A DNA stretch of 64,000 nucleotides from Antedon mediterranea (taxonomy: Eukaryota > Echinodermata > Crinoidea > Comatulida > Antedonidae): contig NC_092671.1 of assembly GCF_964355755.1 (NCBI RefSeq), positions 40,747,804 to 40,811,803 on the forward strand. Direction: 5' to 3'. Positions 407-53,800 of this stretch are shown piece after piece. The position numbers and the translations under genes are program-made. Position 1 is the first letter of the stretch. Each line of letters starts with the position of its first letter. The notes below the pieces were generated by a model. It saw only the letters and a list, made by a program, of their open reading frames with translations. It ran no database searches and was not told the DNA's origin.

Positions 407-3400
407 ATATTTGGTCCTGTGCTTGTGGTTCTGGCTTTTAGGACTGCCAAAGAGGCCATTGCATTGGGAAACAATACAAATTATGGACTGGCGGCAAGTG
501 TATGGACAGAAAATGTGTCATTAGCTATGGAGGTGGCACTTAGCCTTAAAGCAGGAGCAGTCTGGATTAATGCTCACAATATGTTTGATGCTGCAGCTGG
601 ATTTGGAGGCTACAAACACAGTGGATATGGTAGAGATGGAGGAAAAGAGGTATGTCTTCAATAAATTATTTATTACAATGTATCTTGGTATACAAAAAAA
701 ACCAGTGATCACTTAGTTTATGATTGTATTGATAATTGAATTATTAAATTAGCGGTATACCATGTAATTTGTAAAAAATATCAGTTAATGTCACCAAATA
801 AAAATCTGTAAAATTGTCATGTAGTAGGTGTGGTTTTACCAACCAAGTCTGATAATGAAAGCAGTATGTTTGACAATGTTAATAGCATTATTTGTATTCT
901 TAGGGTTTATATGAATATGTTAGTCCAGCTTGGCAAGATCGACCTTGTCCACAACCAGTTGAAGATGATTTAAAGACATTTGGAGTCACCGTACCATCCA
1001 CCCCAAGCAATTCATCTTTAACAGATTTTATCACAGTTGATGGGGTTAGCGTACCAAGGTAATCTCAACATAATTTTCGATAGTTAAATGGAGTTTTAAA
1101 AACTTTTTTTAGACATTTTGATTGAATATTAAATCACACATACAAATTGTACTTGACAGTATTGATCACACATACACATTGTACTTGACAGTATTGATCA
1201 CACATACACATTGTACTTGGCAGTATTGATCACACATACACATTGTACTTGACAGTATTGATCACACATACAAATTGTACTTGACAGTACTGATCACACA
1301 TACACATTATACTTGACAGTATTGATCACACATACAAATTGTACTTGACAGTATTGATCACACATACAAATTGTACTTGACAGTATTTATTGATCACACA
1401 TACCCATTGTACTTGACAGTATTGATCACACATACACATTGTACTTGACAGTATTGATCACCCATACACATTATACTTGACAGTATTGATCACACATACA
1501 AATTGTACTTGACAGTATTGATCACACATACACATTGTACTTGACAGTATTGATTGCACATACAAATTGTACTTGACAGTATTGATCACACATACAAATT
1601 GTACTTGACAGTATTGATCACACATACCTATTGTACTTGACAGTATTGATCACACATACACATTGTACTTGACAGTATTGATCACCCATACACATTATAC
1701 TTGACAGTATTGATCACACATACACATTGTACTTGACAGTATTGATCACCCATACACATTGTACTTGACAGTATTGATCACACATACACATTATACTTGA
1801 CAGTATTGATCACACATACAAATTGTACTTGACAGTATTGATCACACATACAAATTGTACTTGACAGTATTGATCACACATACCCATTGTACTTGACAGT
1901 ATTGATCACACATACACATTGTACTTGACAGTATTGATCACACATACACATTGTACTTGACAGTATTGATCACACATACAAATTGTACTTGACAGTATTG
2001 ATCACACATACACATTGTACTTGACAGTATTGATCACACATACCCATTATACTTGACAGTATTGATCACACATACACATTGTACTTGACAGTATTGATCA
2101 CACATACACATTGTACTTGACAGTATTGAACCCCCCTACACATTATACTTGACAGTATTGATCACACATACACATTATACTTGACAGTATTGATCACACA
2201 TACACATTGTACTTGACACTATTGATCACCCATACACATTGTACTTGACAGTATTGATCACACATACACATTATACTTGACAGTATTGATCACACATACA
2301 CATTGTACTTGACAGTATTGATCACCCATACACATTGTACTTGACAGTATTGATCACACATACACATTATACTTGACAGTATTGATCACACATACAAATT
2401 GTACTTGACAGTATTGATCACACATACACATTGTACTTGACAGTATTGATCACACATACCCATTGTACTTGACAGTATTGATCACACATACACATTGTAC
2501 TTGACAGTATTGATCACACATACACATTGTACTTGACAGTATTGATCACATATACACATTGTACTTGACAGTATTGATCACCCATACACATTATACTTGA
2601 CAGTATTGATCACACATACACATTATACTTGACAGTATTGATCACACATACAAATTGTACTTGACAGTATTGATCACACATACAAATTGTACTATGGAGG
2701 AGCTCAGAAAAGACCAGATGGGAACTACTCAAGATCAGTAAGGAATGTTTCTGGTGGATTAGTAACACTTGTTGCAGATGGAAACAGAAAAGATATCAGA
2801 AATGCAGTAGAAGCAGCTCACAAAGCTGCCCCAGGGTATGGACATGTATTTACTCTGTTCAAGTTTAAGATGACACAATTCAGATTCTCACATTAACAAT
2901 TGCCCAGAAATAGTTCTTTACACAAAGGTCTTAGTTTTTTTTAAATGTGTAAACAATCTAACTACTTCAATAATAGGACCAGAAAACTCAATTTTCTTGA
3001 TAAAGAAAATAAAGTACACATTTTAGAAAGATTTAATAGAAATGTTATTAAACATGTAAAATACAAATAAAATCATAAATTACATTGTTATAACAATATT
3101 TGTTAACAGGTGGGGAAAACGAGCCGCTCACAACCGGGCTCAAATTGTTTACTACATGGCTGAAAATCTAGAACTAAGACGAGATGAGGTTGCAAAGAGA
3201 ATGTCTCTTGCAAGAGGTAGAACTCTAGAAGAAACTCTTAAGGAAGTGGACTTGGCCATTAGGAGGCTGTTTTACTGGGGAGCATATGCAGACAAATTTG
3301 GTGGTACAGTTCAAGTAGGTAACCTGCCATTCGCTTAGAAAAAAACAAGATTTTAAGCTACGATATGGAACATATCATTTGAGATAAGATAAAGATAAGA

Positions 3401-6020
3401 TAATAAGATTTATAAAGCACACATATCCACAAAGTGCTCAAGGTTCTTATACTCAAGGCGAGTATACTTTATCCTGAAGGTACAATTGATTGATTGTATC
3501 CGGATATTGACGCATACTAATTTGAATAATACATTATTTTACAGGAAACTTTACTTTATGGTGCCACAGTAAAGATCCATGAACCTGTTGGCGTTATAGG
3601 TATCGCATGTCCTTCCCAGAATCCTCTGCTGTCTTTTGTCTCCTTGTTTGCACCAGCTGTTGTCAGAGGAAACACAGTTGTTGTCATACCTAGTGATGAG
3701 TACCCAGTTGCTGCCTTGGATTTCTATCAGGTAATCCTTTTTTGAAATATTTCTAATATATTCCTGGTGGAGCCTGTGTTAAAGCTCTTTGAGCTTATTT
3801 TGTCTCTCCAGACACAATAAATAATTTACTGCATTATGTTTATCGTACCTATGAATATTGCTTTGTGTGAATAAAAATAATTCTTAGTGTTTAGCAGGCT
3901 TTTTTGGAACTTCGTTTTTTAGCACTTAATTTAGAACCATAATAATAATGTAGTACAGTAGGCTGATTCTTTCTCTGGAACTTAATTTAGAACCATAATA
4001 ATAATGTTTAGTAGGCTGATTCTTTCTCTGGAACTTAATTTAGAACCATAATAATAATGTTTAGTAGGCTGATTCTTTCTCTGGAACTTAATTTAGAACC
4101 ATAATAATAATGTTTAGTAGGCTGATTCTTTCTCTGGAACTTAATTTAGAACCATAATAATAATGTTTAGTAGGCTGATTCTTTCTCTGGAACTTAATTT
4201 AGAACCATAATAATAATGTTTAGTAGGCTGATTCTTTCTCTGGAACTTAATTTAGAACCATAATAATAATGTTTAGTAGGCTGATTCTTTCTCTGGAACT
4301 TAATTTAGAACCATAATAATAATGTTCAGTAGGCTGATTCTTTCTCTGGAACTTAATTTAGAACCATAATAATAATGTTTAGTAGGCTGATTCTTTCTCT
4401 GGAACTTAATTTAGAACCATAATAATAATGTTTAGTAGGCTGATTCTTTCTCTGGAACTTAATTTAGAACCATAATAATAATGTTTAGTAGGCTGATTCT
4501 TTCTCTGGAACTTAATTTAGAACCATAATAATAATGTTTAGTAGGCTGATTCTTTCTCTGGAACTTAATTTAGAACCATAATAATAATGTTTAGTAGACT
4601 GATTCTTTCTCTGGAACTTAATTTAGAACCATAATAATAATGTTTAGTAGGCTGATTCTTTCTCTGGAACTTAATTTAGAACCATAATAATAATGTTTAG
4701 TAGGCTGATTCTTTCTCTGGAACTTAATTTAGAACCATAATAATAATGTTTAGTAGACTGATTCTTTCTCTGGAACTTAATTTAGAACCATAATAATAAT
4801 GTTTAGTAGGCTGATTCTTTCTCTGGAACTTAATTTAGAACCATAATAATAATGTTTAGTAGGCTGATTCTTTCTCTGGAACTAAATTTAGAACCATAAT
4901 AATAATGTTTAGTAGACTGATTCTTTCTCTGGAACTTAATTTAGAACCATAATAATAATGTTTAGTAGGCTGATTCTTTCTCTGGAACTTAATTTAGAAC
5001 CATAATAATAATGTTTAGTAGACTGATTCTTTCTCTGGAACTTAATTTAGAACCATAATAATAATGTTTAGTAGGCTGATTCTTTCTCTGGAACTTAATT
5101 TAGAACCATAATAATAATGTTTAGTAGGCTGATTCTTTCTCTGGAACTAAATTTAGAACCATAATAATAATGTTTAGTAGACTGATTCTTTCTCTGGAAC
5201 TTAATTTAGAACCATAATAATAATGTTCAGTAGGCTGATTCTTTCTCTGGAACTTAATTTAGAACCATAATAATAATGTTTAGTAGGCTGATTCTTTCTC
5301 TGGAACTTAATTTAGAACCATAATAATAATGTTCAGTAGGCTGATTCTTTCTCTGGAACTTAATTTAGAACCATAATAATAATGTTTAGTAGGCTGATTC
5401 TTTCTCTGGAACTTAATTTAGAACCATAATAATAATGTTTAGTAGGCTGATTCTTTCTCTGGAACTTAATTTAGAACCATAATAATAATGTTCAGTAGGC
5501 TGATTCTTTCTCTGGAACTTAATTTAGAACCATACTTTTAGAATGTAAGGTCTTGCCAGGAGTAAAAAATAAAAACTTAAACAATCTTTATTCTTCTCCT
5601 TTATGTATAATTTTCCTTACACATTTCAATCCATTGCACAGTTTCAGGTCAAAACCATACATTTTAATATACTGTAGCTTCTCATATTTTATAAAAAAAC
5701 TAATTTATTTTTCTAATAAGGTATTTGAAACATCAGATCTACCAGCTGGTGTAGTGAATATTATAACAGGAGACCACGCCCATCTTACTAAGTACCTAGC
5801 TGAGCATCAAGACATACAAGCTATGTGGTATTTTGGTACAGCCTTTGGGTCAAAATATGTAGAACATATCTCTGCTGAAAACTTAAAACGTACATGGGTT
5901 GATTATGGTTTAGTTCGTGATTGGACATGTAAAGAACAAGGACAGGGTGAAGAATTCTTATATCAGTCAACACAGGTGAAAAATGTATGGATTCCAATGG
6001 GTGAAACATTTGCTAATTAG
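407..6020 (+). CDS. ALDH16A1: Aldehyde dehydrogenase family 16 member A1-like protein, C-terminal 418 residues (six exons, 5' partial)
   Basis: Exons: 407-649, 904-1058, 2668-2835, 3110-3314, 3545-3730 and 5721-6020 (stop TAG 6018-6020); phases agree at every junction. The first exon opens with the ALDH motif IFGPVLVV and ends with a typical HSGYGRDGGKE block, the end of a first ALDH domain. After a linker (exon 2), exons 3-6 start a second ALDH-like domain (YYGGAQ, then a KIHEPVGVIGIACP block, TVVVIPS, DLPAGVVNIITGD and QAMWYFG) that stops early, as in ALDH16A1, which carries a truncated second domain. No catalytic cysteine segment is present in this second domain, in keeping with a non-catalytic C-terminal half. 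Two introns consist largely of minisatellite. The exon 3 start at 2668 is inferred, because it lies inside the last unit of the repeat. Family call is firm from motif order; orthology is untested. Confidence 0.9.
1132..2690 (+). repeat. 32-bp minisatellite, about 48 units, each carrying a copy of the ALDH16A1 exon 3 splice acceptor
   Basis: The unit reads TTGACAG, then TATTGATCACACATACACAT, then TGTAC. It runs without a break into exon 3 of the ALDH16A1-like gene. The last CAG (2665-2667) is the acceptor that keeps frame with exon 2 (phase 2), so the coding sequence begins inside the final unit. Repeat spacing is 32 except for a 4-base insertion near 1387. Variants include a unit with AACCCCCC near 2128 and one that lost its AG (GACACT near 2215). 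Confidence 0.93.
3385..3500. repeat. Possible interspersed-repeat fragment in an ALDH16A1 intron
   Basis: The text AAGATTTATAAAGCACACAT, ATCCACAAAGTGCTCAAGG and a GATAAGATAAGATAA run resembles the ends of short interspersed repeats common in marine invertebrates. No second copy lies in this window, so the call rests on resemblance only. Confidence 0.3.
3905..5536 (+). repeat. 53-bp minisatellite, about 30 units, in the last intron of ALDH16A1
   Basis: The unit runs TTAGTAGGCTGATTCTTTCT, CTGGAACTTAATTTAGAACC, ATAATAATAATGT. Units are almost identical, differing at a few positions such as TTCAGTAGG or GTAGACTG. The array fills most of the intron 3731-5720 and stops about 185 bases before the last exon. 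Each unit holds a pyrimidine-rich stretch followed by AATTTAG, so each contains a weak acceptor-like site, but the array does not overlap an exon. Confidence 0.95.
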
Positions 6021-6050
6021 ACTACAGTTTTTGTTTTTGGGTGTTTTTTT

Positions 6051-6056
6051 AATAAA
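6051..6056 (+). promoter_or_regulatory. Polyadenylation signal of the ALDH16A1-like gene
   Basis: AATAAA lies 31 bases after the stop codon, followed by T-rich DNA. Confidence 0.55.
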
Positions 6057-6933
6057 TTTTTCTTTTTGAAACTATTTGTGGAAAAACAGGAATTTTAATT
6101 TAAAATGGTGAAAATATATATAGTGAGTAGATTATTTTGCTGAATTTATCCCATTATCACCCTCGTTTGATATTGTATATATGAATAAAATCTTGATTTG
6201 GATGTTCTTCCACAAGCCTCTACTAAAAGATAGTAACGTAAAACACAAACAAATTGCAACAGAACTACAGCTTGAAATAGAGAAATTAGAATAAACATAA
6301 AAATCATAATTTACAATGTTCTGTACAAAATACAAATATAACAATGGTACAGTTCTGTTTGATGGTGGGAAAAGTAAACCAAAAATGAATCATGAGAAGC
6401 TTTAGCAGAGCACTACGATATTATTATGATAAAAACATACCCTGTGTGTAAACCCACAAATGCTGCATTGGCTCAGCAGGCAATGCAACCAGTTCAAACA
6501 CAAGTATTTTTTATCAATGCGATATAAATCGGATTTAGGATTTCTTGGTATACTACAATACCAGTATGTATAAATGTATTTAGAAAAGTGTATAACCATC
6601 AAACATAAAATAAAAACCATGGTTTAACAAAATGATTGGATTGTGTGTCGTTTATATTGTCTTTTGTTCACAAGAGAATATTGTATAAAAAAATCAAATA
6701 TTGTGTAGTTTTTGATAACATCAAAATTTCCTTCATCCATGGAGTTATGCTTCATCAAATCAAAACCGACACGAGAAAAAACGACATGCATCATGAGCTT
6801 CTTTTAGAATGCATAAATGGCACTCCATAGACCAACCAACAGATTTACCGTATCTATAACTTAAATCTGGTAAGGGGGCCCCTTTCGGCATAGGCCTAGA
6901 AACTATGCTTTATTCAAGTTAAGCAATTGTATA
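6057..6933. other. Intergenic spacer between ALDH16A1 and ABCB8
   Basis: About 0.9 kb of AT-rich DNA between two co-directional genes. It must hold the ABCB8 promoter. I see no TATA box near 6900 and no conserved coding sequence; the short open frames here have no recognisable motifs. The TAGGCCTA palindrome occurs near 6890. Confidence 0.5.
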
Positions 6934-9900
6934 ATGTTTCCTACAGTTTACGCAGCCAGACGGCTTTTGTTTGGTTCAAGAATTGTGTTGAGAAATGTTA
7001 GCCAATTTAAGCCTAGGCCTAGTGGTAGTAGGTCTGGGCTATCATTTTGTCAAAATACATCGCTTGGTGAGTGGTGGTTGTTGACACATGGATCGACCGG
7101 CTCGAGACGCAGAGTGGGCCTAGGATTCCCATGTGTACATTTATTTAATTCTAACTGTATGAAAATCATCATCCGAAGTTACATACGAAGCCGAAGGTAA
7201 GGATTACATAGAGGTGGGGGTTGGACGTATTGTTGAATTTTGTTGTATGATTTATTTTTATTTTTTTTTCGAAATATTCTATAAACCAACTTTGATTTCG
7301 GCTACCGGGTATGGAACGCCCAATTACATGGTGCGCCACGCTCGCCAAACGTTATCCTCATTTCTCTGCCGCCAGCGAATGTAATTGAATGCTGTGATTG
7401 ATGTATGGTGTTGGTGCATCAGGTTAACCCATTGTGCATTAAGATTATTTTCTATTTTGATATTGAGAAAAAGCAATTGAAATATATTAGAAATAGTAGT
7501 ATTCTTATGAAATAACCTGTGTGTACAATTTCTGTAGATTCTTTATTACGAGTATGTTGAGAAGTCCCGTGAGAAGTTCAAGACAGTTCAGTAGATTGCA
7601 GACATCAGCTACAAAACGACCAAAATGTGTGATGTTTATCCTGGGGTCAGCAGTCGGGATTTCAAAACTAAATGTTGCTGAATGTGGAATTAATACAAAA
7701 GGTAGCACTCGTCTCCTAGTCTCTACAGACGCCAAAGAAAAAACGACACAAGCGAGATTTCATTTACAAGAATTCTTCAAGTTGCTATACCCTGAAATTT
7801 TCTCATTGATACTGGCAGTTATAGTAAGTATAAATGTCAAAACTAAATATTTGTTAATTCATTTCAAGAAAAAAAGTTTTTTTATGACATAAAAAAAAAA
7901 TAACTAGATAACATGAAAAAATGAATTATTTAGAACGAAAAAATGACAAAATCAGAAGAAAAAATGATTAAGGTTTCTGTTTAAATATTTTTGTTCTCTC
8001 TTTTGTTATTTTTAAATTGAGAATGTATTATTGTAAGTTGATCATGGCCTAGTAGAAGAACATCTTTATGACACAAGCTTTTCCGTGTTAAAATAAAGTA
8101 TTTTTTATTATTATATTACAATATGTTTTATCTGAACATAGACTGCCATTGGTGCTGCAATAGTGAATGTTCAAATTCCTATACTACTTGGTGAACTAAT
8201 ACAAGTTGTGTCAAAGTTCACTGTAGAAACCGAAGCAAATTTTATGAGTGAAATATACACGCCAGCAATTAAACTGTTAACAGCTTATGGTCTTCAGTCC
8301 ATTGCCACGTTTGGCTATATCACATTGTTGTCTAGCATTGGAGAGCATGTTGCATCACACATGAGGAAAGACTTATTTAATTCTTTAATCCAACAAGACA
8401 TACAGTTCTTTGATACACACAAAACAGGAGAATTAATTAACAGGTATATTTACTTCTTTTTCTTGAATGAAACTTTTGACTAGGAAGCTAATACTACTAC
8501 AATGAATAGCTGTAATTGTGCTGTAAATAAATTGAAGTAATCTAATACTTAACTTACATAAGCATGTTATTTTTCCAGGTTAACTGCTGATGTTCAGGAT
8601 TTTAAAAGTTCTTTTAAATTATGCATTTCACAAGGCGTTCGTAGTTCAACTCAGGTAAGCAAACTGCACCAAGGATTACAACACTGTAGTAAACCAAGAT
8701 TGGGAAAAGCAAGACTCATTACATTGAATTCATGTATTTTAGAGTATATTCTTTAATAATTATGATATTTATTGAACAGATAGTTGGTTGTGTTGTTTCA
8801 TTGTATTGGATCTCACCTCAGTTAACCGGTGTAATGGTTGTTGTTATGCCGTGTCTCGTGCTTGGTGGTGCTATTGTTGGCGTGGTTTTAAGGAAACTCT
8901 CAAAAACTGTACAAGAGCAGGTAGGTCTATTACTATTGTAATAATCAGTAAATCCTAAATCCGGAGAGAAAACTAAAACCAGATGACATTTTAAAATGTA
9001 TTTTTCTAGATTGCCATAGCAACATCGGTAGCTGATGAAGCCCTTGGTAATGTACGTACTGTACGTGCATTCGCTATGGAAACTAAAGAGGCCCAGTTGT
9101 ATGCGACAGAGGTTGACAAGTGTAGCAAACTGAATGAACAACTTGGATTTGGTATAGGTGTCTTTCAAGGCCTTACTAACTTTGTTCTTAATGGTAATAT
9201 TTTTAGATTCTCTGATATGTTATTATAAATAAAGCAGTCAATATGTCAATTTATGAAATTGCTTTGTGTTTGTGAAGATGACAAATGTTAAGCTAATCAA
9301 TGTTAAGCTGCTAATCATTTGTGACAAATGTTAAGCTGCTAATCATTTGTGACAAATGTTAAGCTGCTAATCATTTGTGACAAATGTTAAGCTGCTAATC
9401 ATTTGTGACAAATGTTAAGCTGCTAATCATTTGTCTTGCTGGAATGTACTACTTATAGTACTAGAGCATGAATGACTTAGTATATTCTTGTCATTTTATT
9501 TTCATTTCATTTTATCCTTTAATTTTTCACCCATTGTTACAATTGAATGTACTATAGCATAATCAACTTAAGCCTGAATATTATGCGATGTGAAACCCTC
9601 ACCAAATACCAGAGTATTTTTCATGAGTTGAAAGCCTGACTGTTCTTATACACCTAGGAAAAGCCAAATCGTTTTTCAGTCTTTCAAATGTTGATCAACC
9701 ATTATTTGTATATTGTTCACTACTCGCAACATTTGTTATTTATCAGGGGTTGTTCTTGGTGTGCTTTACTGTGGAGGATTTCTAATGGCCAATAAGAAGC
9801 TGGAGCCAGGTGACCTCATGTCATTTCTTGTAGCTTCTCAAACAGTGCAGCGGTCAATGGCTAGCATGTCGATTCTGTTTGGTCAAGCAGTTCGTGGTAT

Positions 9901-12900
9901 TAGTGCTGGAACAAGAGTTTTTGAGGTAATAGTTTAAGTAATTATTCAATAATTAGATGGTTTCTATTTCAGTTTAATTGCAGTTTACTTGTAATTATGA
10001 AGCTGACACAGCAATAGTTAGACCCAGAAACCACACAATAATAGATTGTAATTATGAAGCTGATACAGCATTAGTTAGACCCAGAAACCACACAATAATA
10101 GATTGGAATTATGAAGCTGACACAGCATGACCCAGAAACCACACAATAATAGATTGTAATTATGAAGCTGACACAGCAATAGTTAGACCCAGAAACCACA
10201 CAATAATAGATTGGAATTATGAAGCTGACACAGCAATAGTTAGACCCAGAAACCACACAATAATAATAGATTGGAATTATGAAGCTGACACAGCAATAGT
10301 TAGACCCAGAAACCACACAATAATAGATTGGAATTATGAAGCTGACACAGCAATAGTTAGACCCAGAAACCACACAATAATAGATTGGAATTATGAAGCT
10401 GACACAGCAATAGTTAGACCCAGAAACCACACAATAATAGATTGGAATTATGAAGCTGACACAGCAATAGTTAGACCCAGAAACCACACAATAATAGATT
10501 GTAATTATGAAGCTGACACAGCAATAGTTAGACCCAGAAACCACACAATAATAGATTGGAATTATGAAGCTGACACAGTATTATATTAGACCCAGAAACC
10601 ACACAATAATAGATTGGAATTATGAAGCTGACACAGCATTAGTTAGACCCAGAAACCACACAATAATAGATTGGAATTATGAAGCTGACACAGCAATAGT
10701 TAGACCCAGAAACCACACAATAATAGATTGGAATTATGAAGCTGACACAGCAATAGTTAGACCCAGAAACCACACAATAATAGATTGGAATTATGAAGCT
10801 GACACAGCATTAGTTAGACCCAGAAACCACACAATAATAGATTGGAATTATGAAGCTGACACAGCATTAGTTAGACCCAGAAACCACACAATAATAGATT
10901 GGAATTATGAAGCTGACACAGCAATAGTTAGACCCAGAAACCACACAATAATAGATTGGAATTATGAAGCTGACACAGCATTAGTTAGACCCAGAAACCA
11001 CACAATAATAGATTGTAATTATGAAGCTGACACAGCATTAGTTAGACCCAGAAACCACACAATAATAGATTGGAATTATGAAGCTGACACAGCAATAGTT
11101 AGACCCAGAAACCACACAATAATAGATTGGAATTATGAAGCTGACACAGCAATAGTTAGACCCAGAAACCACACAATAATAGATTGTAATTATGAAGCTG
11201 ACACAGCAATAGTTAGACCCAGAAACCACACAATAATAGATTGGAATTATGAAGCTGACACAGCATTATATTAGACCCAGAAACCACACAATAATAGATT
11301 GGAATTATGAAGCTGACACAGCATTAGTTAGACCCAGAAACCACACAATAATAGATTGGAATTATGAAGCTGACACAGCAATAGTTAGACCCAGAAACCA
11401 CACAATAATAGATTGGAATTATGAAGCTGACACAGCAATAGTTAGACCCAGAAACCACACAATAATAGATTGGAATTATGAAGCTGACACAGCATTAGTT
11501 AGACCCAGAAACCACACAATAATAGATTGGAATTATGAAGCTGACACAGCATTAGTTAGACCCAGAAACCACACAATAATAGATTGGAATTATGAAGCTG
11601 ACACAGCAATAGTTAGACCCAGAAACCACACAATAATAGATTGGAATTATGAAGCTGACACAGCATTAGTTAGACCCAGAAACCACACAATAATAGATTG
11701 TAATTATGAAGCTGACACAGCATTAGTTAGACCCAGAAACCACACAATAATAGAATGGAATTATGAAGCTGACACAGCAATAGTTAGACCCAGAAACCAC
11801 ACAATAATAGATTGGAATTATGAAGCTGACACAGCATTAGTTAGACCCAGAAACCACAGAATAATAGATTGGAATTATGAAGCTGACACAGCAATAGTTA
11901 GACCCAGAAACCACACAATAATAGATTGGAATTATGAAGCTGACACAGCAATAGTTAGACCCAGAAACCACACAATAATAGATTGGAATTATGAAGCTGA
12001 CACAGCAATAGTTAGACCCAGAAACCACACAATAATAGATTGGAATTATGAAGCTGACACAGCATTAGTTAGACCCAGAAACCACACAATAATAGATTGG
12101 AATTATGAAGCTGACACAGCAATAGTTAGACCCAGAAACCACACAATAATAGATTGTACAATGTATATGTTAATTAATCTTTAATATTTTAGTACATACT
12201 TCACACACCATCAATACCTATTACTGGAGGAAAGAAGATAGCTTACCATAGCTTAAGAGGAGAAATTGAATTCAGAGACATTTGCTTTAGGTATCCCACA
12301 CGACCAGACCAGGTAGGAACATAATCATTTCAAATTAATTACTTCATTTAACATTTTTTATTTCAGCTTTCATATGAAAATCTTAGTTTGTTTTGGTTAT
12401 TTCTACTGCTACATCGAAGTCTTGTTTTTGTTTTTCAGGAAATATTAACACATCTTGATTTGAAAATTAAGCCAGGTGAAGTTATTGCATTGTGTGGTCC
12501 TTCAGGAGGAGGTAGGGCAACGTGTCTTACATTATTTTCATAAAATTAAGCCCAGTGAAGTTATTACATTGTGTTGAAAGAGTATTAGATAATGTTGAAA
12601 GAGTATTAGATAATGTTGAAAGAGTATTAGATAATGTTAAATGAAGAGTACGCATAATGATTTATTTGTATGTAAACACTATTGACATAATTTCATCCAC
12701 ATACAACTCTTTATAACAAAATGTTTCTATCTTCTTTCAACTAAAAGTTGTGGTTAATCTAGGGTCACATTCTATAGTCAGATAGGCTGCTTGCTATATC
12801 AGTGTACTAATGAATGGATGAATGGCTGCTATATCAGTGTACTTATGAATGGATGAATGGCTGCTATATCAGTGTACTTATGAATGGATGACTAGTTGGT

Positions 12901-15900
12901 CATACCCAGTAATGTTTTTATTTTACGATCATTCGGGAAACCACTGTAATTATATATTAAAATTGCGGTATATGATTCATTTTATTGTTATAAAAATACT
13001 GACTATATATGTTTTGTAGGTAAATCAACGATAGCATCACTGCTTGAGAGATTTTATGATGCGGATAATGGAACAATTACTATCGATGGGTATGATATAA
13101 AGCTGTTTGATCCCACCTGGCTGAGGGGCAGAGCAATTGGATTTATAAATCAGGTATATCATTCTTAAATAATATATATTTATTTTATGGAATTACCTTC
13201 AAGATTATATTATCTGCATGCATTAATGTATACTTTTGGGTATTATCATATTGGTATTGTTTTTATTTTTTATCAGGAACCAGTTTTGTTTGCTAGTAGT
13301 GTAATGGAAAACATTAGGTATGGCAAACCAGAAGCAACAGATCAAGAGGTAAGAAAAGAATGAAATGTAGATTGATTTAGTACATAATAAAGATGAAAAA
13401 AAATGAGTAAATTAATAAATAGTTAAATATAAAATACATAATATAGAAAGTCTTATCTTATTTGTATTCTAGGTCATAGAAGCTGCTATTCTTGAATTAT
13501 ATTTAACGTCTCTATCATATTTTAATGTCCTATTTGTATTATAGGTCATAGAAGCTGCTATTCTTGATTTATATTCAATGTCTCTATCATATTTTAATGT
13601 CCTATTTGTATTATACAGTAGGTCATAGAAGCTGCTATTCTTGATTTATATTCAACATCTCTATCATATTTTAATGTCCTATTTGTATTATAGGTCATAA
13701 AAGCTGCTATTCTTGATTTATATTCAACGTCTCTATCATATTTTAATGTCCTATTTGTATTCTAGGTCATAGAAGCTGCTATTCTTGATTTATATTCAAC
13801 GTCTCTATCATATTTTAATGTCCTATTTGTATTATAGGTCATAGAAGCTGCTATTCTTGATTTATATTCAATGTCTCTATCATATTTTAATGTCCTATTT
13901 GTATTATAGGTCATAAAAGCTGCTATTCTTGATTTATATTCAATGTCTCTATCATATTTTAATGTTCTATTTGTATTATAGGTCATAGAAGCTGCTATTC
14001 TTGATTTATATTCAATGTCTCTATCATATTTCAATGTCCTATTTGTATTATAGGTCATAGAAGCTGCTATTCTTGATTTATATTCAATGTCTCTATCATA
14101 TTTCAATGTCCTATTTGTATTATAGGTCATAGAAGCTGCTATTCTTGATTTATATTCAATGTCTCTATAATATTTTAATGTCCTATTTGTATTATAGGTC
14201 ATAGAAGCTGCTATTCTTGATTTATATTCAATGTCTCTATCATATTTCAATGTCCTATTTGTATTATAGGCCATAGAAGCAGCTATTCTTGATTTATATT
14301 CAATGTCTCTATCATATTTTAATGTCCTATTTGTATTATAGGTCATAGAAGCTGCTATTCTTGATTTATATTCAACGTCTCTATCATATTTTAATGTCCT
14401 ATTTGTATTATAGATCATAGAAGCTGCTATTCTTGATTTATATTCAATGTCTCTATCATATTTTAATGTCCTATTTGTATTATAGATCATAGAAGCTGCT
14501 ATTCTTGATTTATATTCAATGTCTCTATCATATTTTAATGTCCTATTTGTATTATAGGTCATAGAAGCTGCTATTCTTGATTTATATTCAATGTCTCTAT
14601 CATATTTTAATGTTCTATTTGTATTATAGGTCATAGAAGCTGCTATTCTTGATTTATATTCAATGTCTCTATCATATTTTAATGTCCTATTTGTATTATA
14701 GATCATAGAAGCTGCTATTCTTGATTTATATTCAATGTCTCTATCATATTTTAATGTTCTATTTGTATTATAGGTCATAGAAGCTGCTATTCTTGATTTA
14801 TATTCAACGTCTCTATCATATTTTAATGTCCTATTTGTATTATAGATCATAGAAGCTGCTATTCTTGATTTATATTCAATGTCTCTATCATATTTTAATG
14901 TCCTATTTGTATTATAGGTCATAGAAGCTGCTATTCTTGATTTATATTCAATGTCTCTATCATATTTTAATGTCCTATTTGTATTCTAGGTCATAGAAGC
15001 TGCTATTCTTGATTTATATTCAATGTCTCTATCATATTTTAATGTCCTATTTGTATTCTAGGTCATAGAAGCTGCTATTCTTGATTTATATTCAATGTCT
15101 CTATCATATTTTAATGTCCTATTTGTATTCTAGGTCATAGAAGCTGCTATTCTTGATTTATATTCAATGTCTCTATCATATTTCAATGTCCTATTTGTAT
15201 TATAGGTCATAGAAGCTGCTATTCTTGATTTATATTCAATGTCTCTATCATATTTTAATGTCCTATTTGTATTCTAGATCATAGAAGCTGCTATTCTTGA
15301 TTTATATTCAACGTCTCTATCATATTTTAATGTCCTATTTGTATTCTAGGTCATAGAAGCTGCTATTCTTGATTTATATTCAATGTCTCTATCATATTTT
15401 AATGTCCTATTTGTATTCTAGTTCATAGAAGCTGCTATTCTTGATTTATATTCAATGTCTCTATCATATTTTAATGTCCTATTTGTATTATAGGTCATAG
15501 AAGCTGCTATTCTTGATTTATATTCAATGTCTCTATGATATTTTAATGTCCTATTTGTATTCTAGGTCATAGAAGCTGCTATTCTTGATTTATATTCAAC
15601 GTCTCTATCATATTTTAATGTCCTATTTGTATTATAGGCCATAGAAGCTGCTATTCTTGAGTTATATTCAATGTCTCTATCATATTTTAATGTCCTATTT
15701 GTATTCTAGGTCATAGAAGCTGCTATTCTTGATTTATATTCAACGTCTCTATCATATTTTAATGTCCTATTTGTATTCTAGGTCATAGAAGCTGCTATTC
15801 TTGATTTATATTCAATGTCTCTATCATATTTTAATGTTCTATTTGTATTATAGGTCATAGAAGCTGCTATTCTTGATTTATATTCAATGTCTCTATCATA

Positions 15901-17038
15901 TTTTAATGTCCTATTTGTATTATAGGTCATAGAAGCTGCTATTCTTGATTTATATTCAATGTCTCTATCATATTTTAATGTCCTATTTGTATTATAGGTC
16001 ATAGAAGCTGCTATTCTTGATTTATATTCAATGTCTCTATCATATTTTAATGTCCTATTCGTATTATAGGTCATAGAAGCTGCTATTCTTGATTTATATT
16101 CAATGTCTCTATCATATTTTAATGTCCTATTTGTATTCTAGGTCATAGAAGCTGCTATTCTTGATTTATATTCAACGTCTCTATCATATTTTAATGTCCT
16201 ATTTGTATTCTAGGTCATAGAAGCTGCTATTCTTGCAAATGCTCATGACTTTATAGAAAAATTCCCTGAAGGATATAACACTATTGTTGGTGAAAGAGGT
16301 GTAACAGTTTCTGGGGGACAAAAACAGAGGTAATGCATATTTTGACACAGTTGAAATATTATATATATTGTATTGTACTGTATATTTCATTTAAAATAAG
16401 TTTGTTTTGTTTGTTTAGAATTGCAATAGCCCGAGCACTGTTAAAAGATCCATGTATATTGATATTAGATGAAGCAACAAGCGCCCTCGATGCAGAGTCT
16501 GAGCGCTTGGTTCAGGACGCATTGGATCGGGTTTCAAAAGGTATTTTTACTGATTGTCAATAATTGTTTTTATATAATTACAATTAAAAGTTTATGTTTT
16601 TACAAGAGCAATGATTTGAATGATTGTTGGCATTATAGGTCGTACAGTTCTCGTCATAGCTCATCGGTTAAGTACTATACGTAAAGCTGATGTCATTGCT
16701 GTCTTAGTTAATGGAATAATCAAAGAGGTAAGCTATGTTACAAATCAACTAAGTATGTGTACAAATACGTATTCAAATAATTAAAGCTATTACAGATCAA
16801 GTAATATGTGTACAAGTACATATTCAAGTAAAAATGTTTGAAATATATTAAAATAAAATATCATTTTTATCTACTGTACAGCAATTAATGTATTAATTTA
16901 ATTATTAGATTAATGATTAAAATCATTTATAATCTAATAATCGTTTATGATTCGTTTTAGATGGGAAATCATGATGAGCTTCTAACGAGAAAAGGAATAT
17001 ATAAAGAACTTATACAACAACAAAGAATTGAAGAATAA
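6934..17038 (+). CDS. ABCB8: Mitochondrial half-ABC transporter, ABCB8-like (complete, 15 exons, 744 residues)
   Basis: Exons: 6934-7196, 7538-7823, 8142-8443, 8579-8654, 8780-8920, 9010-9193, 9747-9925, 12193-12312, 12439-12511, 13020-13153, 13277-13348, 16214-16329, 16419-16540, 16639-16727, 16961-17038; all phases agree. An Arg-rich, acid-poor N-terminus ([16 protein letters not shown]) suits a mitochondrial presequence. The membrane domain spans residues about 170-460, with [24 protein letters not shown] and [16 protein letters not shown] typical of ABCB8. The ATPase domain has Walker A GPSGGGKST (split by the intron after GPSGGG), Q-loop INQEPVLF, signature SGGQKQR (VSGGQ here, not LSGGQ), Walker [15 protein letters not shown] and the H-loop AHRLS. 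ABCB8 is an inner-membrane half-transporter; a mito-KATP role has been proposed. The start ATG at 6934 is the first in frame; an ATG at 7554 would remove the presequence. Length is close to the vertebrate protein (about 735). Confidence 0.93.
9270..9435 (+). repeat. 28-bp minisatellite, five to six units, in ABCB8 intron 6
   Basis: The unit is GACAAATGTTAAGCTGCTAA plus TCATTTGT, lying between exons 6 and 7. The first copies are degenerate. Confidence 0.9.
9993..12156 (+). repeat. 57-bp minisatellite, about 38 units, in ABCB8 intron 7
   Basis: The unit runs AATTATGAAGCTGACACAGC, AATAGTTAGACCCAGAAACC, ACACAATAATAGATTGG. It begins about 67 bases after the donor and ends 36 bases before the exon 8 acceptor, so the intron is almost pure satellite. 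Because 57 is a multiple of three, long open frames appear on both strands; they are an artefact of the period. A block of units recurs with an offset of 685 bases (see findings). Confidence 0.96.
12542..12577 (+). repeat. Intronic partial duplicate of ABCB8 exon 9
   Basis: About 33 bases starting AAAATTAAGCCCAGTGAAG match exon 9 at 12463-12497 with three or four differences. The copy lies 31 bases after the exon 9 donor and lacks splice sites. It is followed by a 21-bp triplicate (GTTGAAAGAGTATTAGATAAT, 12573-12640) that starts within it. Confidence 0.8.
12573..12640 (+). repeat. 21-bp tandem triplicate in ABCB8 intron 9
   Basis: GTTGAAAGAGTATTAGATAA plus T is repeated three times with almost no change. 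Confidence 0.85.
12788..12892 (+). repeat. 35-bp tandem triplicate in ABCB8 intron 9
   Basis: GCTGCTATATCAGTGTACTT followed by ATGAATGGATGAATG occurs three times; the first copy is slightly changed. Confidence 0.85.
13455..16235 (+). repeat. 72-bp minisatellite with 39 copies of the ABCB8 exon 12 splice acceptor and exon start
   Basis: Each unit consists of an acceptor (TTTGTATTCTAG or TTTGTATTATAG), 22 bases matching the start of exon 12 (GTCATAGAAGCTGCTATTCT TG), then about 50 intron-like bases. Exon-like starts fall at 13473, 13545, 13622, then every 72 bases from 13694 to the true one at 16214. Only the last copy continues into real coding sequence (GCAAATGCTCATG). Long open frames on the minus strand with a 24-residue period are artefacts of 72 being a multiple of three. 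Confidence 0.97.
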
Positions 17039-31100: not shown

Positions 31101-34100
31101 TACCCCATCATACAGTGACATACAAAACCATTGACCAGGTCCGTACACGTCCCTCCATGCTTACACACATTGTTAGAACATTCGTTAATATCTACAAAAA
31201 TAACTTTATTTAATATCGATATCCGTATATCAAAATGGGAAGTCTATTGATTTTATCTGAATTAAAGGATGGCGAGGCATTTTCCCCTTTTCTACAATTA
31301 AGGCTTCCTCTTTTCAACATTCATAATTGAATACAGTAAACACTGTGCGTCACGTACGTGTATCAGCATTATTGCGTCATTCCCGTTCAATTTACGCAAG
31401 TGGCCATCTATGGAGTTTCATTACATGGTATCCCTTCCTTTTATGAGTATATGCGAAAATCTATCCATGGTTTTATGCAACGTATGTTGAATAGTTGTAA
31501 TATTCTTGTTGCTTGTGTTTGCAAACATGTGCTCCATAACTCAAAAATGTATTGTAGATAAAGAAGTATCCTATATTTTTAAGCTTAGAGTTTGCGAATT
31601 TTCTTTTTCTTTTCCGCTTGTACGTTTATTGATATATGGATGAATTTTCCGAAATAAATTAAATTACCTGATTCACAAAATTCTCCCTCGTAACCCGCGC
31701 CACACTCGCAAGTGACGCCACCAATCTTATCTGTGCAGGTAGCACCATTTAAGCAAGGAGTGGATACGCAGTCGTCTTCATCTGGAAAATCAATGAACAT
31801 TTTTGTCAATTAACTCAAATGTGTATAATATAATTATTTGTTTATATAATGTGATTTCCTTCTACCGTTTCTATAAAAGTATGTTGTACTTACTTAATTC
31901 ACAATTCTTTCCAGTGAACCCAGAGTGACAGTTACACTCATAACTTCCAAACGTATTGACACATGTACCTCCATGTTCACATGGTGATAAGTAACATTCA
32001 TTTCGATCTGTTGATAAAACAATATCCATTGTTTAAAGTCGGTTGTTATGCTATAATACAGTTTGACAATTTATTGTTCAAAACCATTTAATTACACAAG
32101 AGTGTGGATGACCAGATCCACTACAGTTATTATTGCCTTACGACATCCATTACATTTGTCCCATCTTTAAGCAGTCAATATCTGTACAACAGTTAGTATC
32201 TATAAAACATCGACTTACCATTCTGGCACAGCTTGCCTTTAAATCCATAATCACATTTGCATTTGAAAGAGTTCAATTTATCAATGCACTGCCCTGAGTT
32301 CTGACAAGGATTTGATTCACACTCATTGATTTCTATAAAATTTACATATAGATACTTTAATACATATAAAATGAATACACATAAATACTTGTATCGTACA
32401 TTTTGTTGTGATATGGAATAAATATATGTATATACAGTATTAAACCTTGTATTTACCTATTTCGCAGTTAGGCTGGGCATATCCTTTAATACACTGACAA
32501 AAAAATCCATTAATTTCGTCTGAACATTTACCTCCATTCAGGCATGGAGAAGAATCGCACTCATTTATATCTGTTAATTTTGAGAATAAAACGTTCATGT
32601 TTAGGGAAAACACCATAGTACTTAACTTGTAGGATGTTTAAAATAACGAGCTTTGGTTAACTTTAATTCAACATCAAGGCAATGTAATTTACAGTAATCA
32701 TGTTCTTACTTGTTTCGCAATGGTAACCGCTAAATCCAGGTACACATTGACATTGGTAGTGATATTCCTTGTCGATACAACTAGCCCCATTTTTACACGG
32801 TGCTGAAGCGCATTCATCAACGTCTAAACGAAATTAAAACACAAACTTTTGTAACCTAAATAGATTCTATATAATTTGTCATGCACTTAGACTTTCAATC
32901 GCTTCTTTTAAAAATTGACTTTAACTTTAATACGGTAATTAATGAGTAATATTAACAAAAGTGTTTTTCTTCTGTAGGCGTTATATAACAAACATTCCAA
33001 TATACAGTATTGGTATCATGTCATTCAAGTGTTTAACAAGACACACGCTTGTTTGCCGTCTAAGAGGCGGCACCTTTTATTCAGTGAAGCAAACACAAAA
33101 CGCTGGATAGCGTACTGTTGAAGAGAAATGGACCTGAACGAATCCCTTGGTTGTAATTGTATTGATGTATGACAAACTATTCCGACAATTGTCAATATTA
33201 ATTACAGTATTATATTAATTATTTCAGTAAAAAATTTATAATTTCTGTTATTATTTGTATTTGGCCCACGTATTTAGCACTTTCGGTTACTCTCTAGATT
33301 TGATTCATAATACTATAAATAAAAACACAAATACTAACCAATTTCACACAAATCTCCGTCATACCCGGCATTGCAAAAACACATAAAAGCTCCCGGAAGA
33401 TCCACGCAATAACCATTTTCACATGGACTTGAGTCACATTCGTTCACTTCTGATTTGAGAAAAAAATTATTTATTAATGATTTCTTTTTTTCAATTTAAA
33501 TCCTTTAATGGCATGGTCCATATTGTTTTATCAAAAACATTTGGAAATACAGTTATTTCACAGTCTTTCTAACGTAATATGACTCTTCCCCCACATGATT
33601 ACTTCATTGCATTTATTATCCTGTATGTATGTTATTATTGTGGAAATAAATGAAATTAAATTGAAAATTTAAATTATATAAATATAAAAATGATTACAAA
33701 CCAGATTCACAGAGTGGGCCAATAAATCCGTCAGTGCATTTACATTCAAAGCTATCAACTCGATCAATACAACTAGCTCCATGTAAACACGGAAGTGACC
33801 AACATTCGTCATTTTCTAAAAGAACAACAATCAATACCTTATGTTAAAAGTATTCAACGATAAAGTTCATAACCTATTTAATATAATTGTAAATAGATTT
33901 AATTGTAAACATATTGTATAATGTACTTTTATTTTGCTTTGGCGGTTTCGAACTTGGTAAATTTATTTTTTTTTTAAAGAACAAGCAAGTAACGTACAGT
34001 ATTTAGGTTTATAGCTTATCTTTGGTTGTCCTCACCTGTACAGTATTTAGTTTATAGCTTATCTTTGGTTGTCCTTACCTGTACAGTATTTAGTTTATAG

Positions 34101-37100
34101 CTTATCTTTGGTTGTCCTTACCTGTACAGTATTTAGGTTTATAGATTATCTTTGGTTGTCCTTACCTGTACAGTATTTAGGTTTATAGCTTATCTTTGGT
34201 TGTCCTTACCTGTCTCACAATTGCCACCAGTGAAGCCTGGTAAACAGGAGCAAGAATAGGAATCGATGTTGTCAGAACATTCACCTCCATTCAGACACGG
34301 AGAAGACTCGCATTCATTGATTTCTAGAGATGCCATTAAATTAAAATATTTATTTGTTTCATTATTATAACTTGGTCATTTGTGAGTGCATCGAAAAGAC
34401 CCCGAAACTGCACGAAACCGGCGACAGATCCACCACCATGGCTGACATTAAAAACAATCCTAGTTCGTCACATGATGATGGTTTTACCGTATTAATCTAG
34501 AATCCATTTTCAATCATTTAAAATAACCAAGACTGCTACTATTACGACTATTACTAATAAGTCAAAATCAAGTAAAGAAGGTTTAAGTTAAGGTAAAGAT
34601 TATAATTTGTAGTTACCTTCTTCACAGTTGTTACCCTGGTAACCAGGTACGCACTCACATTCATAACCATCTTCTAACTCAACGCAGATAGCTTCGTTTT
34701 GACAAGGGCTTTTTAAGCAGTATTCAGGTCCTATTAAAAGAAGGGTTTATTTCTGATAAAACCGTCAATAACTAAATTCCTGAATCCATTAAAATAATGA
34801 AAACAGATTAAGTACGTCGCTTTCTGTAATATTTATAAATTGTGCATGCTTTCAATATAATAAGTAGGCTTACTATACTTACTGTACAATACTGTGATTA
34901 GGGATTAAACATAATATATCTCCTCACAATAACAACAAAATTGACTGTTTTGAGCCCCATAAAAATGGCAATCAATACCGAAAGTATTGTTTACACTTTC
35001 ACTCAATTATTCTCTTTTTTTTTGCAGTAAATACAGATATTATTATTATTTGGAAGATGCAGTTCTCGATATAAGAAAAAAATAGTTTGGCCATTCTAAA
35101 GTAAGAACGTATCTTGTCAGGCTTTTGCTACTGTTGCATCTCCTTCATCACGTTTCATTATCTTGTTAACTTTGAGACAATTTATTTGGACTTAAAGTTT
35201 ATTGTATTGTAAGCATGTACTTAATGTGTGTACGTACCTGTGTAGAACATCCAAGACCAAGTACCAACCGCTACACATTTACTGTTAATTCTGCTATAAC
35301 GACTCGCAGTTGGAAACACTTGTACAAAGTATTTCTTGTTTCCTCTAAACTCGACTCCTTCAGTTGAGATAATCATGGCTTTAGGATTATCAATTGGAAA
35401 TCTTACTAAGTCGGATGTCGCTGGTTCAATATCTAATAAATATTTTCCAGAACGTTTAAAGATTTTCACGGCAGCCGGAGCTGTATCAGTTGTTATCTGT
35501 TGATAAAATTGAAATGTGTCTTATGTTTAGAATTGTGTCAACACATTTATTTTAGTAAGTTATAACCAATGAATTATTTTAAAACTACTGTACTTACATT
35601 TTCGTTAAAGGTAATTGTAATTTCACTCTTTCTTGCTGATATTGTTGAAAGCGGGGATGGGTCTGATAACATCGGGTTTACTTCTACCATTTCACCTATT
35701 TATGAATAATACATCATTACTAATATTTGTCTGGTATATAACATAACGATCGTTTAATATTGCGTACTATTGCACGCAATGTGATCCACATTCGTCCAAT
35801 CAAATTTATTTAGGTGTTATATAATATAAACTATATAACGAGTTTTTGGAGTCAGTTTTATGTTATTTAAACATAATCAGTGCATCTATTGGTAGTAGGC
35901 TATCATGTCTCAATGTTTAAATTAGGCCAAACGTATAAACATACTTACTTATAATTACTAGAGACATACACGTTTGGTCACTTGACATTCTGAAAATAGT
36001 TAAATTGAGATATAATAATGATGCCAATCCAGAGTGTAGCGTTCATGTTTTCACAAAACGACGATTCACAAAACGACGAATTAAGTTTTGATAGGTATGT
36101 ATGTCTCCCTCATCACTGTCGGGTAATTTTAAATAGGTCAGAATTTAAAGCTTAAGTACTAAATCCTCTTTCATATACCGGTGGTATTCGGCATCTTTTG
36201 TGTGTCAAACAATGATATTATTGAGCTATTACTTTGCTAAAAAACAGTTAGAGAAAATGCCGTATTAGTTGTTTGTTTCGCGATTTCCATGTAAAACAAT
36301 GTCGTTCACTATATTTCAAACGAAAGCACAAATTTAATGGGGCATACCAGATTAATCTGTAATTACTTTCATTGCATGGCCAACTCTCAGATATTATTGT
36401 GGATTAGTTGAATTACAGTAATGAAATATTTATCACATTATTGATTTCAATGAATATTATTGAATGTAATAACTTACTTCTTGCTGTCTGTGGCATAATA
36501 ACATAGAATCTTCTCTCCTACTTGGTCTGGGCTCGGTGTCCACGTCACATTCACAAAATAGTCGGTTTTAGATCCGGGTAGTTTTGCTAAAGAAGATTTC
36601 CTCATTCCAACAGGAGAGATGGTTTGAATCTCCTTAATGCTACACAAGTTTAATATTACGAAACACATAAATGAAACCAGTATTTGTTTTACTTATTTGA
36701 ACTTGTTGACAATTCTATAATGATTATGGTCCATTGGTATTAACTACCGTGTCTATCAATTCAACACCATCAGTATGCACGGCACGATGCATTAAAACAT
36801 TAAAACGCCCCAAAAATGTACTTAGTTTAGGAACACTTGTTATTTTGTCTCTATCCAAATAATAATACTGATATTTCTCACCTTATATCAGGCCTACTAC
36901 TTCGTGCAATAAGCTGGGTACTAAAAGTCTCCCCTACTGAAACAACATAGCAGGCACTGAGGGCATTTGGCTCGATGAACACTGGAAATACATCACAGTT
37001 TGATTCTGAAAATAGAACTCATTATTAGATTGATGATGCCGAAAAGGCCAAGTACAGTATACAAGTTTAGAAAGTACCATCGTTAAGCAGATGTAGGGCT

Positions 37101-50286: not shown

Positions 50287-50894
50287 TATAATCTTCCTCG
50301 TGGTATGTCAGTATATCCCTCTTTCTTCCAGTTTAGGTGTTTACCTTGAGTTCACACTGTTACTAGTGTACACATACCGTGGTTGGATTTATATATACTA
50401 CTCACAACACTGTTCCGCTTTGATGGTTTGAATATTACTACGCTTCACGCCCCCACCGTCTGTTGTATGATACGTACTTTCCATTATTTCCTCGGGATAT
50501 CGCCGGGATATCCTCAGTTTGCCCTCTAAGCGGTAATTCAACCGCATCCACACCCTGAACACCCATTCATCCTCCAATATACCAATTTCGTAAACATAAT
50601 AATCTATTTGAAATTAATATTATGTATGTTACAATGGTCGGATACTGTAGTACACATGGTAAAAATAAATAAAATCAAAGGTGCCTGCTATTATTCTTCA
50701 TTTTAAAATGTTGGACCGAAAGCTCACCGTAAAGAACATCGATATATTTTCCCCTCTCAATTGTACATAAATAATACTTAAATGTTCTACCCTTTTCTTG
50801 TTTAAAACTCACTATTCTCTTGTCTTTATTTGTAAGATAAAATACAACCAAATAATATATATATATATATATATAGGCTATATTTCTTATGGTT
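50287..50894. other. Region between the EGF/ZP gene start and the upstream minisatellite
   Basis: Probable proximal promoter of the EGF/ZP gene. Includes a (TA)n microsatellite at 50855-50873. No coding sequence seen. Confidence 0.4.
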
Positions 50895-53800
50895 ATTTCT
50901 AAACAAATTAGTTACCCTAACCCCAGACCGGTATAGTGTTATTTCTAAACAAATTAGTTACCCTAACCCCAGACCGGTATAGTGTTATTTCTAAACAAAT
51001 TAGTTACCCTAACCCCAGACCGGTATAGTGTTATTTCTAAACAAATTAGTTACCCTAACCCCAGACCGGTATAGTGTTATTTCTAAACAAATTAGTTACC
51101 CTGACCCCTAACCGGTATAGTGTTATTTCTAAACAAATTAGTTACCCTAACCCCAGACCGGTATAGTGTTATTTCTAAACAAATTAGTTACCCTAACCCC
51201 AGACCGATATAGTGTTATTTCTAAACAAATTAGTTACCCTAACCCCAGACCGGTATAGTGTTATTTCTAAACAAATTAGTTACCCTAACCCCAGACCGGT
51301 ATAGTGTTATTTCTAAACAAATTAGTTACCCTAACCCCAGACCGGTATAGTGTTATTTCTAAACAAATTAGTTACCCTAACCCCTAACCGGTATAGTGTT
51401 ATTTCTAAACAAATTAGTTACCCTAACCCCAGACCGGTATAGTGTTATTTCTAAACAAATTAGTTACCCTAACCCCAGACCGGTATAGTGTTATTTCTAA
51501 ACAAATTAGTTACCCTAACCCCAGACCGGTATACTGTTATTTCTAAACAAATTAGTTACCCTAACCCCAGACCGGTATAGTGTTATTTCTAAACAAATTA
51601 GTTACCTTAACCCCAGACCGGTATAGTGTTATTTCTAAACAAATTAGTTACCCTAACCCCAGACCGGTATAGTGTTATTTCTAAACAAATTAGTTACCCT
51701 AACTCCAGACCGGTATAGTGTTATTTCTAAACAAATTAGTTACCCTAACCCCAGACCGGTATAGTGTTATTTCTAAACAAATTAGTTACCCTAACCCCAG
51801 ACCGGTATAGTGTTATTTCTAAACAAATTAGTTACCCTAACCCCAGACCGGTATAGTGTTATTTCTAAACAAATTAGTTACCCTAACCCCAGACCGGTAT
51901 AGTGTTATTTCTAAACAAATTAGTTACCCTAACCCCAGACCGGTATAGTGTTATTTCTAAACAAATTAGTTACCCTAACCCCAGACCGGTATAGTGTTAT
52001 TTCTAAACAAATTAGTTACCCTAACCCCAGACCGGTATAGTGTTATTTCTAAACAAATTAGTTACCCTAACCCCAGACCGGTATAGTGTTATTTCTAAAC
52101 AAATTAGTTACCCTGACCCCTAACCGGTATAGTGTTATTTCTAAACAAATTAGTTACCCTAACCCCAGACCGGTATAGTGTTATTTCTAAACAAATTAGT
52201 TACCCTAACCCCAGACCGGTATAGTGTTATTTCTAAACAAATTAGTTACCCTAACCCCAGACCGGTATAGTGTTATTTCTAAACAAATTAGTTACCCTAA
52301 CCCCAGACCGGTATAGTGTTATTTCTAAACAAATTAGTTACCCTAACCCCAGACCGGTATAGTGTTATTTCTAAACAAATTAGTTACCCTAACCCCTAAC
52401 CGGTATAGTGTTATTTCTAAACAAATTAGTTACCCTAACCCCAGACCGGTATAGTGTTATTTCTAAACAAATTAGTTACCCTAACCCCAGACCGGTATAG
52501 TGTTATTTCTAAACAAATTAGTTACCCTAACCCCAGACCGGTATACTGTTATTTCTAAACAAATTAGTTACCCTAACCCCAGACCGGTATAGTGTTATTT
52601 CTAAACAAATTAGTTACCTTAACCCCAGACCGGTATAGTGTTATTTCTAAACAAATTAGTTACCCTAACCCCAGACCGGTATAGTGTTATTTCTAAACAA
52701 ATTAGTTACCCTAACCACAGACCGGTATAGTGTTATTTCTAAACAAATTAGTTACCCTAACCCCAGACCGGTATAGTGTTATTTCTAAACAAATTAGTTA
52801 CCCTAACCCCAGACCGGTATAGTGTTATTTCTAAACAAATTAGTTACCCTAACCCCAGACCGGTATAGTGTTATTTCTAAACAAATTAGTTACCCTAACC
52901 CCAGACCGGTATACTGTTATTTCTAAACAAATTAGTTACCCTAACCCCAGACCGGTATAGTGTTATTTCTAAACAAATTAGTTACCTTAACCCCAGACCG
53001 GTATAGTGTTATTTCTAAACAAATTAGTTACCCTAACCCCAGACCGGTATAGTGTTATTTCTAAACAAATTAGTTACCCTAACTCCAGACCGGTATAGTG
53101 TTATTTCTAAACAAATTAGTTACCCTAACCCCAGACCGGTATAGTGTTATTTCTAAACAAATTAGTTACCCTAACCCCAGACCGGTATAGTGTTATTTCT
53201 AAACAAATTAGTTACCCTAACCCCAGACCGGTATAGTGTTATTTCTAAACAAATTAGTTACCCTAACCCCAGACCGGTATAGTGTTATTTCTAAACAAAT
53301 TAGTTACCCTAACCCCAGACCGGTATAGTGTTATTTCTAAACAAATTAGTTACCCTAACCCCAGACCGGTATAGTGTTATTTCTAAACAAATTAGTTACC
53401 CTAACCCCAGACCGGTATAGTGTTATTTCTAAACAAATTAGTTACCCTAACCCCAGACCGGTATAGTGTTATTTCTAAACAAATTAGTTACCCTGACCCC
53501 TAACCGGTATAGTGTTATTTCTAAACAAATTAGTTACCCTAACCCCAGACCGGTATAGTGTTATTTCTAAACAAATTAGTTACCCTAACCCCAGACCGGT
53601 ATAGTGTTATTTCTAAACAAATTAGTTACCCTAACCCCAGACCGGTATAGTGTTATTTCTAAACAAATTAGTTACCCTAACCCCAGACCGGTATAGTGTT
53701 ATTTCTAAACAAATTAGTTACCCTAACCCCAGACCGGTATAGTGTTATTTCTAAACAAATTAGTTACCCTAACCCCTAACCGGTATAGTGTTATTTCTAA

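Follow-up and report, generated by a model that had tools for sequence, protein, structure and literature searches.

The 3' splice site of one intron in the crinoid Antedon mediterranea, in a gene that its predicted protein identifies as the mitochondrial transporter ABCB8, is present in 39 tandem copies, and only the last of these leads into a real exon. Each 72-bp unit consists of 50 nt of intron end and 22 nt of exon start, equal to the true intron end and exon start. On the features compared, the array fits the class of the "mirages", tandem repeats lying across intron/exon boundaries that were named in the lancelet Adh3 gene (passages of PMC3087553 and PMC3902484). With a confidence slightly above even, we take it to be a passively formed mirage minisatellite, the last copy of which is selected by exon definition. 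The features concerned are collected in Table 1; the window is the whole stretch of 64,000 nucleotides that was analysed.

Table 1. Coordinates of the ABCB8 array, its host gene and two sister arrays in the window
Feature	Position	Strand	Details
Sister acceptor array, aldehyde dehydrogenase gene	1133..2693	+	32-bp unit, CAG + exon start, 47 copies; true exon from 2668
ABCB8 gene	7554..17038	+	14 modelled coding exons, 651 aa; match to human ABCB8
ABCB8 exon 5' of the array, 72 nt	13277..13348	+	open frame, exon model, human ABCB8 match; donor GAG/GTAAGA at 13349
Array-bearing intron, 2,865 nt	13349..16213	+	longest of 13 introns in the ABCB8 model
72-bp tandem array	13459..16235	+	TRF: period 72, 38.5 copies, 96% matches
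First decoy exon start	13473..13494	+	acceptor would give a 124-nt intron; top rough score of 39 (13.1)
Sole irregular step	13545..13626	+	77 bp; extra ACAGT ahead of copy 3
True exon, 116 nt	16214..16329	+	first 22 nt = last array copy; donor AG/GTAATG at 16330
Small donor sister array	33994..34213	-	44-bp unit, ACAG/GTAAGG, 5 copies, one of them the real donor; follows an EGF exon

With 14 exons spliced across GT..AG introns, the model has an intact frame of 651 aa, which is open only via the last copy (16214); the start ATG at 7554 is our own choice, and earlier exons are possible. Among the best 60 of 590 PDB matches of this protein, the two highest are ABCB8 chains (5och, 749.7 bits; 7ehl, 749.1 bits), full-length ABCB1-type chains reach 689 bits as the sum of two stretches, and the half-transporter ABCB10 reaches 469.5 bits. 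The match to human ABCB8 spans 584 residues. These results bear out the initial annotation, which had named the gene ABCB8 and had held that only the last copy leads into real exon. Since the ABCB8-matching protein stretch crosses the junction 13348/16214, homology identifies the last copy as the true acceptor. The exon behind it had been called exon 12: it is indeed a real exon of the 651-aa ABCB8, but the 11th of the 14-exon model, and the former label would require one more 5' exon that is absent from this model. Seven of the 13 introns in the model measure at most 135 nt, and the next intron 3' of the true exon measures 89 nt.

The 22-nt exon start occurs 39 times on the + strand (13473-16214) with 0-2 mismatches each, and has no copies on the - strand of the window. 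The acceptor AG is intact in 39/39 copies, in agreement with the 39 tandem copies of AG and 22 exon nucleotides counted earlier, and is followed by GT in 31 copies, AT in 5, GC in 2 and TT in 1. Thirty-seven of the 38 intervals between copies are exactly 72 bp, the exception being a single 77-bp interval from 13545 to 13622. The earlier description of 35 exact intervals from 13694 is thus right, the regular run in fact starting at 13622 (36 intervals); of the extent given for the array, 13455-16235, the end stands and the TRF start lies a few bases later, at 13459. Such an array far exceeds what chance would produce. Nineteen types, intermixed along the array, make up the 37 exact units. Relative to the consensus these units show 48 changes in all, of which 11 affect exon positions (1.35% per site) and 37 intron positions (2.0% per site). 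Neighbouring units differ by a mean of 1.89, against 2.18 over all pairs; a value this low arose in 36 of 5,000 shuffles of the unit order. This is a weak likeness of the kind expected from local duplication. There is no evidence of selection on the decoy AGs: if they changed at the rate of the array itself, they would remain unaltered in all 37 units with a probability of 0.26. A 407-aa antisense frame across the array (13762-14985) is taken as a chance reading, because a 24-codon unit that is open in one frame remains open on repetition.

A two-unit probe of 144 bp yielded 18 matches in the 354-Mb assembly (354,431,138 bases in 18 contigs), all of them within the ABCB8 array, and the notion of a dispersed family is rejected, the unit having no matches elsewhere in the assembly. 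The GC content of the window is 33%; that of Branchiostoma is about 41%. The assembly contains let-7. It gave no match to COX1, and none to mir-2 at E 0.001 with 60 of 132,004 candidates scored; the GFP and GH6 families likewise had no match, in searches that lacked a positive in the control genomes and thus do not imply absence.

Local sequence leaves the true site unmarked. Copies 5, 27 and 33 are identical to it over -50..+22, and 9 of the 38 decoys are identical over -20..+22. On a rough acceptor matrix, built from 14 other acceptors of two genes that are its own training set (range 4.7-16.0), the true site scores 7.0 (rank 6 of 39, ten tied) versus 13.1 for the first decoy. The RNA of the last 360 nt folds no better than shuffled sequence (z 0.88; 79/100 shuffles fold at least as well). 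As neither the local sequence nor the RNA fold sets the true site apart, position must decide. Here two published rules, both from passages of PMC9225289, come into conflict: in short introns the upstream acceptor is predicted, whereas with long flanking introns the sites closest across the exon are preferred. Short-intron pairing would choose the first decoy, 124 nt from the donor, and pairing across the 116-nt exon the last copy, 2,865 nt from it. The view of the array as a natural test of distance rules is therefore upheld, the more so since the first decoy offers an ordinary 124-nt intron and scores better.

Choice of a wrong acceptor has a uniform consequence. When the upstream exons are joined to each decoy in turn, a stop follows 42-81 nt past the junction in 38/38 cases, indicating that misuse is unable to yield whole ABCB8. 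In 35 of the 38 the distance is 69 nt, the acceptor TAG of the following unit being in frame there; copy 2 (81 nt) and copies 10 and 29 (42 nt) are the exceptions. It had been proposed that the final acceptor must be picked or all others ignored. As only the last acceptor keeps the frame open, the 38 decoys must indeed be ignored, or else their products must be discarded.

The discarding of products leads to a different account of the array, in which acceptor choice is noisy: the decoys, above all the first, would be used, the stop-bearing products degraded, and array length would set the amount of ABCB8. The closeness of the first decoy to the donor and its top score, the early stop in all 38 misjoinings and the published preference for upstream acceptors in short introns (passages of PMC9225289) are consistent with this idea. 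Most of the message of a cell-essential gene would be lost in this way, however, and lancelet mirages examined by RT-PCR are reported to be spliced normally; we regard such a noisy choice as unlikely. Sequential splicing, in which the donor joins an early copy and the AG/GT junction then serves as a new donor for stepwise removal of the array, appears extremely improbable. AG/GT is present in 31 of the 39 copies, and a GAG/GTCATA site could be rebuilt by the first joining, yet on a rough matrix this rebuilt donor scores 4.0, under all 16 real donors (4.4-13.2), and the top GT site within the array scores 0.4. The copies are also unlikely to be recursive splice sites, that is, acceptors directly followed by a usable donor, the rebuilt donor being too weak.

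Masking of the 38 decoys by RNA structure is scarcely credible: the repeats could pair with one another, but the unremarkable fold of the last 360 nt and the identity in sequence of true acceptor and decoys argue against it. That the length of the array is an assembly artefact, or that the gene is no longer in use, is very improbable. Tandem arrays are difficult to assemble, and the exact copy number of the ABCB8 array is provisional; nevertheless, the mixture of 19 unit types among 37, together with one irregular step, speaks against an artefact, as do comparable arrays in other genes and contigs. Disuse is at odds with an intact 651-aa frame that matches human ABCB8 over most of its length.

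The passive mirage with exon definition would come about as follows. A 72-bp piece straddling the intron end and exon start, located in a repeat-rich region close to a chromosome end, would have been copied in tandem and the copies partly homogenised, with the exon-side copy alone remaining joined to the exon body. The acceptor complex on this last copy may then pair across the exon with the downstream donor, and the other 38 acceptors would be excised along with the intron; residual misuse would run into stop codons and, presumably, message decay. In each of the nine boundary arrays found, acceptor or donor, the open-frame copy is the exon-side one, which is partly so by definition. The stops behind 38/38 decoys, the unmarked true site, the published long-intron rule, the lancelet mirages and the seeding estimate given below speak for the reading as a whole, which on balance we hold to be somewhat more probable than its negation. 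The short introns of ABCB8, including that downstream of the true exon, and the better-scoring first decoy count against exon definition. If ABCB8 is used, we infer that exon definition is more likely than short-intron pairing to prevail.

The initial annotation had treated the array as exceptional, a view that the same genome does not support, given that mirages are a described class and that sister arrays exist. The gene just upstream of ABCB8 matches Pfam Aldedh and, in our reading, is ALDH16A1. Its array contains 47 acceptor copies within 4 mismatches, with AG in 46; a stop follows each of the 46 upstream copies, leaving 2668 as the sole open one. Behind the EGF exon, the donors on the - strand are spaced 43-44 bp apart, and the unit holds only 4 exon bases. 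Among 22 ABC-family loci, one carries an acceptor array of 7 copies (L014) and another a donor array of 33 exon-end copies, each then followed by GTAAGT (L052+L004, contig C8, about 28.3475-28.3499 Mb), the first copy being joined to the exon according to a by-eye reading of the frame. Further donor arrays have 12 copies (L003+L053) and 12 copies (L021). Of two small donor arrays in L004 (1295-1394 and 3400-3465), one comprises three exon-end copies, of which two precede a GTAAGT; the other, situated where the locus ends, shows 3 copies within it. The names ABCA and ABCB10-like (L014) are our putative readings of frames beside a PF00005 match. Among 16 ALDH loci, the window's own gene alone has a boundary array.

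On contig C2, the window is 110-175 kb away from the contig end; for the remaining boundary arrays the distances to contig ends are about 96-99 kb (C3), 260 kb (C1) and 229-256 kb (C8). In the survey of 38 loci (22 ABC + 16 ALDH), which overlap and are clustered, a boundary array was defined by a unit of at least 18 bp, at least 2 copies and at least 85% matches, and was judged by eye; the small array of L006 was counted as none, and L032/L041 (C11) were taken as interior. Such arrays occur in 7 of 11 loci within 300 kb of a contig end versus 0 of 27 others (Fisher p 2.6e-5) and, counted by clusters with the window removed, in 3/4 versus 0/15 (p 0.004). The subtelomere idea is post hoc, having been formed after the data were seen. 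A fresh sample agrees with it weakly: in six 10-kb pieces situated 150-160 kb from ends, minisatellites with 20-100 bp units make up 7.6% of the sequence, compared with 2.3% in ten interior pieces (one-sided p 0.037; none in 1/6 and 5/10 pieces, respectively); in the window they make up 21%. There is a hint, new relative to the lancelet reports, that mirages are common near chromosome ends. The window also holds a minisatellite at 50892-54302 (46 bp x 74) and two intronic ones that end short of exons, at 9989-12156 (57 bp x 38) and 3924-5534 (53 bp x 30). In L046, a satellite of 192-bp units (5175-10000) extends up to the limit of the sequence sampled. A dispersed element that bears a 21-bp direct repeat (GTGATATGCCCAAATATGGTA type), found beside genes in L005, L007, L009, L028 and L035, looks like a short inverted-repeat transposon.

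If arrays were seeded at random over the two genes, 1.19 of 8 would be expected at boundaries, and 2 are seen (probability of 2 or more, 0.34); this estimate is rough, using our own 20-exon model of the two genes with 36 splice sites and partly by-eye placement, and excludes a weaker array at 7915-7967 (81% matches). It further predicts that 21-33% of seeds fall wholly within exons, and none was seen there, as selection would give. Because random seeding predicts about as many boundary arrays as are seen, no special splice-site mechanism is needed, nor one that targets boundaries.

The ABCB8 array offers a ready-made experiment on acceptor choice: its 38 decoys stand at graded distances, and three match the true site exactly across 72 nt. 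An early stop and 72-nt steps in transcript length flag each wrong choice, and intron definition and exon definition make opposite predictions about which end of the array is used; the donor sister arrays provide the mirror-image test within the same cells. The survey suggests that, beyond the few published genes, mirages may reach a large size and be rather frequent close to chromosome ends. A bolder proposal, which we consider distinctly unlikely, is that genes close to chromosome ends in this species bear as many as about 47 acceptors or donors in tandem, and that their expression depends entirely on exon definition prevailing over short-intron pairing. The arrays would then act as length-variable dials: with each added decoy misuse and decay would rise slightly, so that individuals would differ in their dose of ABCB8, of the aldehyde dehydrogenase and of several ABC genes. 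The arrays would also be a lasting source of new introns.

Among the literature matches listed, in which subscription papers are thinly covered, no report on boundary arrays, whether subtelomeric or not, or on acceptor arrays came closer than the work cited here, and the phrase "mirage minisatellite" found no paper. The minisatellite of human G1P3 (IFI6) is said to have a shorter unit than the ABCB8 array and to supply donor sites of which several are used. It resembles the arrays described here in supplying multiple splice donor sites (Nucleic Acids Res 1995). Passages of PMC2812944 describe internal tandem repeats in human segmental-duplication genes that lie at exon-intron boundaries and can alter splicing. 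They too are minisatellites touching such boundaries, but have units of about 30 bp and a mean of 4 copies, several create introns in recent paralogs, and these passages contain no array of tens of acceptors. The lancelet mirages are the nearest system. According to passages of PMC3087553 and PMC3902484, they also occur in the globins BflGb6 and BflGb9, TnC and PGBD5, show length and somatic instability, have units of 10-160 bp, seemingly leave splicing undisturbed, and were proposed by their authors as an intron source. Like them, the ABCB8 array has a unit that spans the boundary and falls, at 72 bp, within the reported range, with an authentic copy on the exon side and partial homogenisation, as seen in the weak likeness of neighbours. 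In both systems acceptors or donors are involved, AG or GT is kept in many copies and the authentic copy stands at the edge. They differ in that the published mirage hosts, in these passages, are cephalochordates and the genes are others, and in that 39 copies in ABCB8, with 47 and 33 in its sisters, compare with 6 and 3 in two BflGb6 haplotypes. What is new relative to the lancelet mirages is the scale and the genes.
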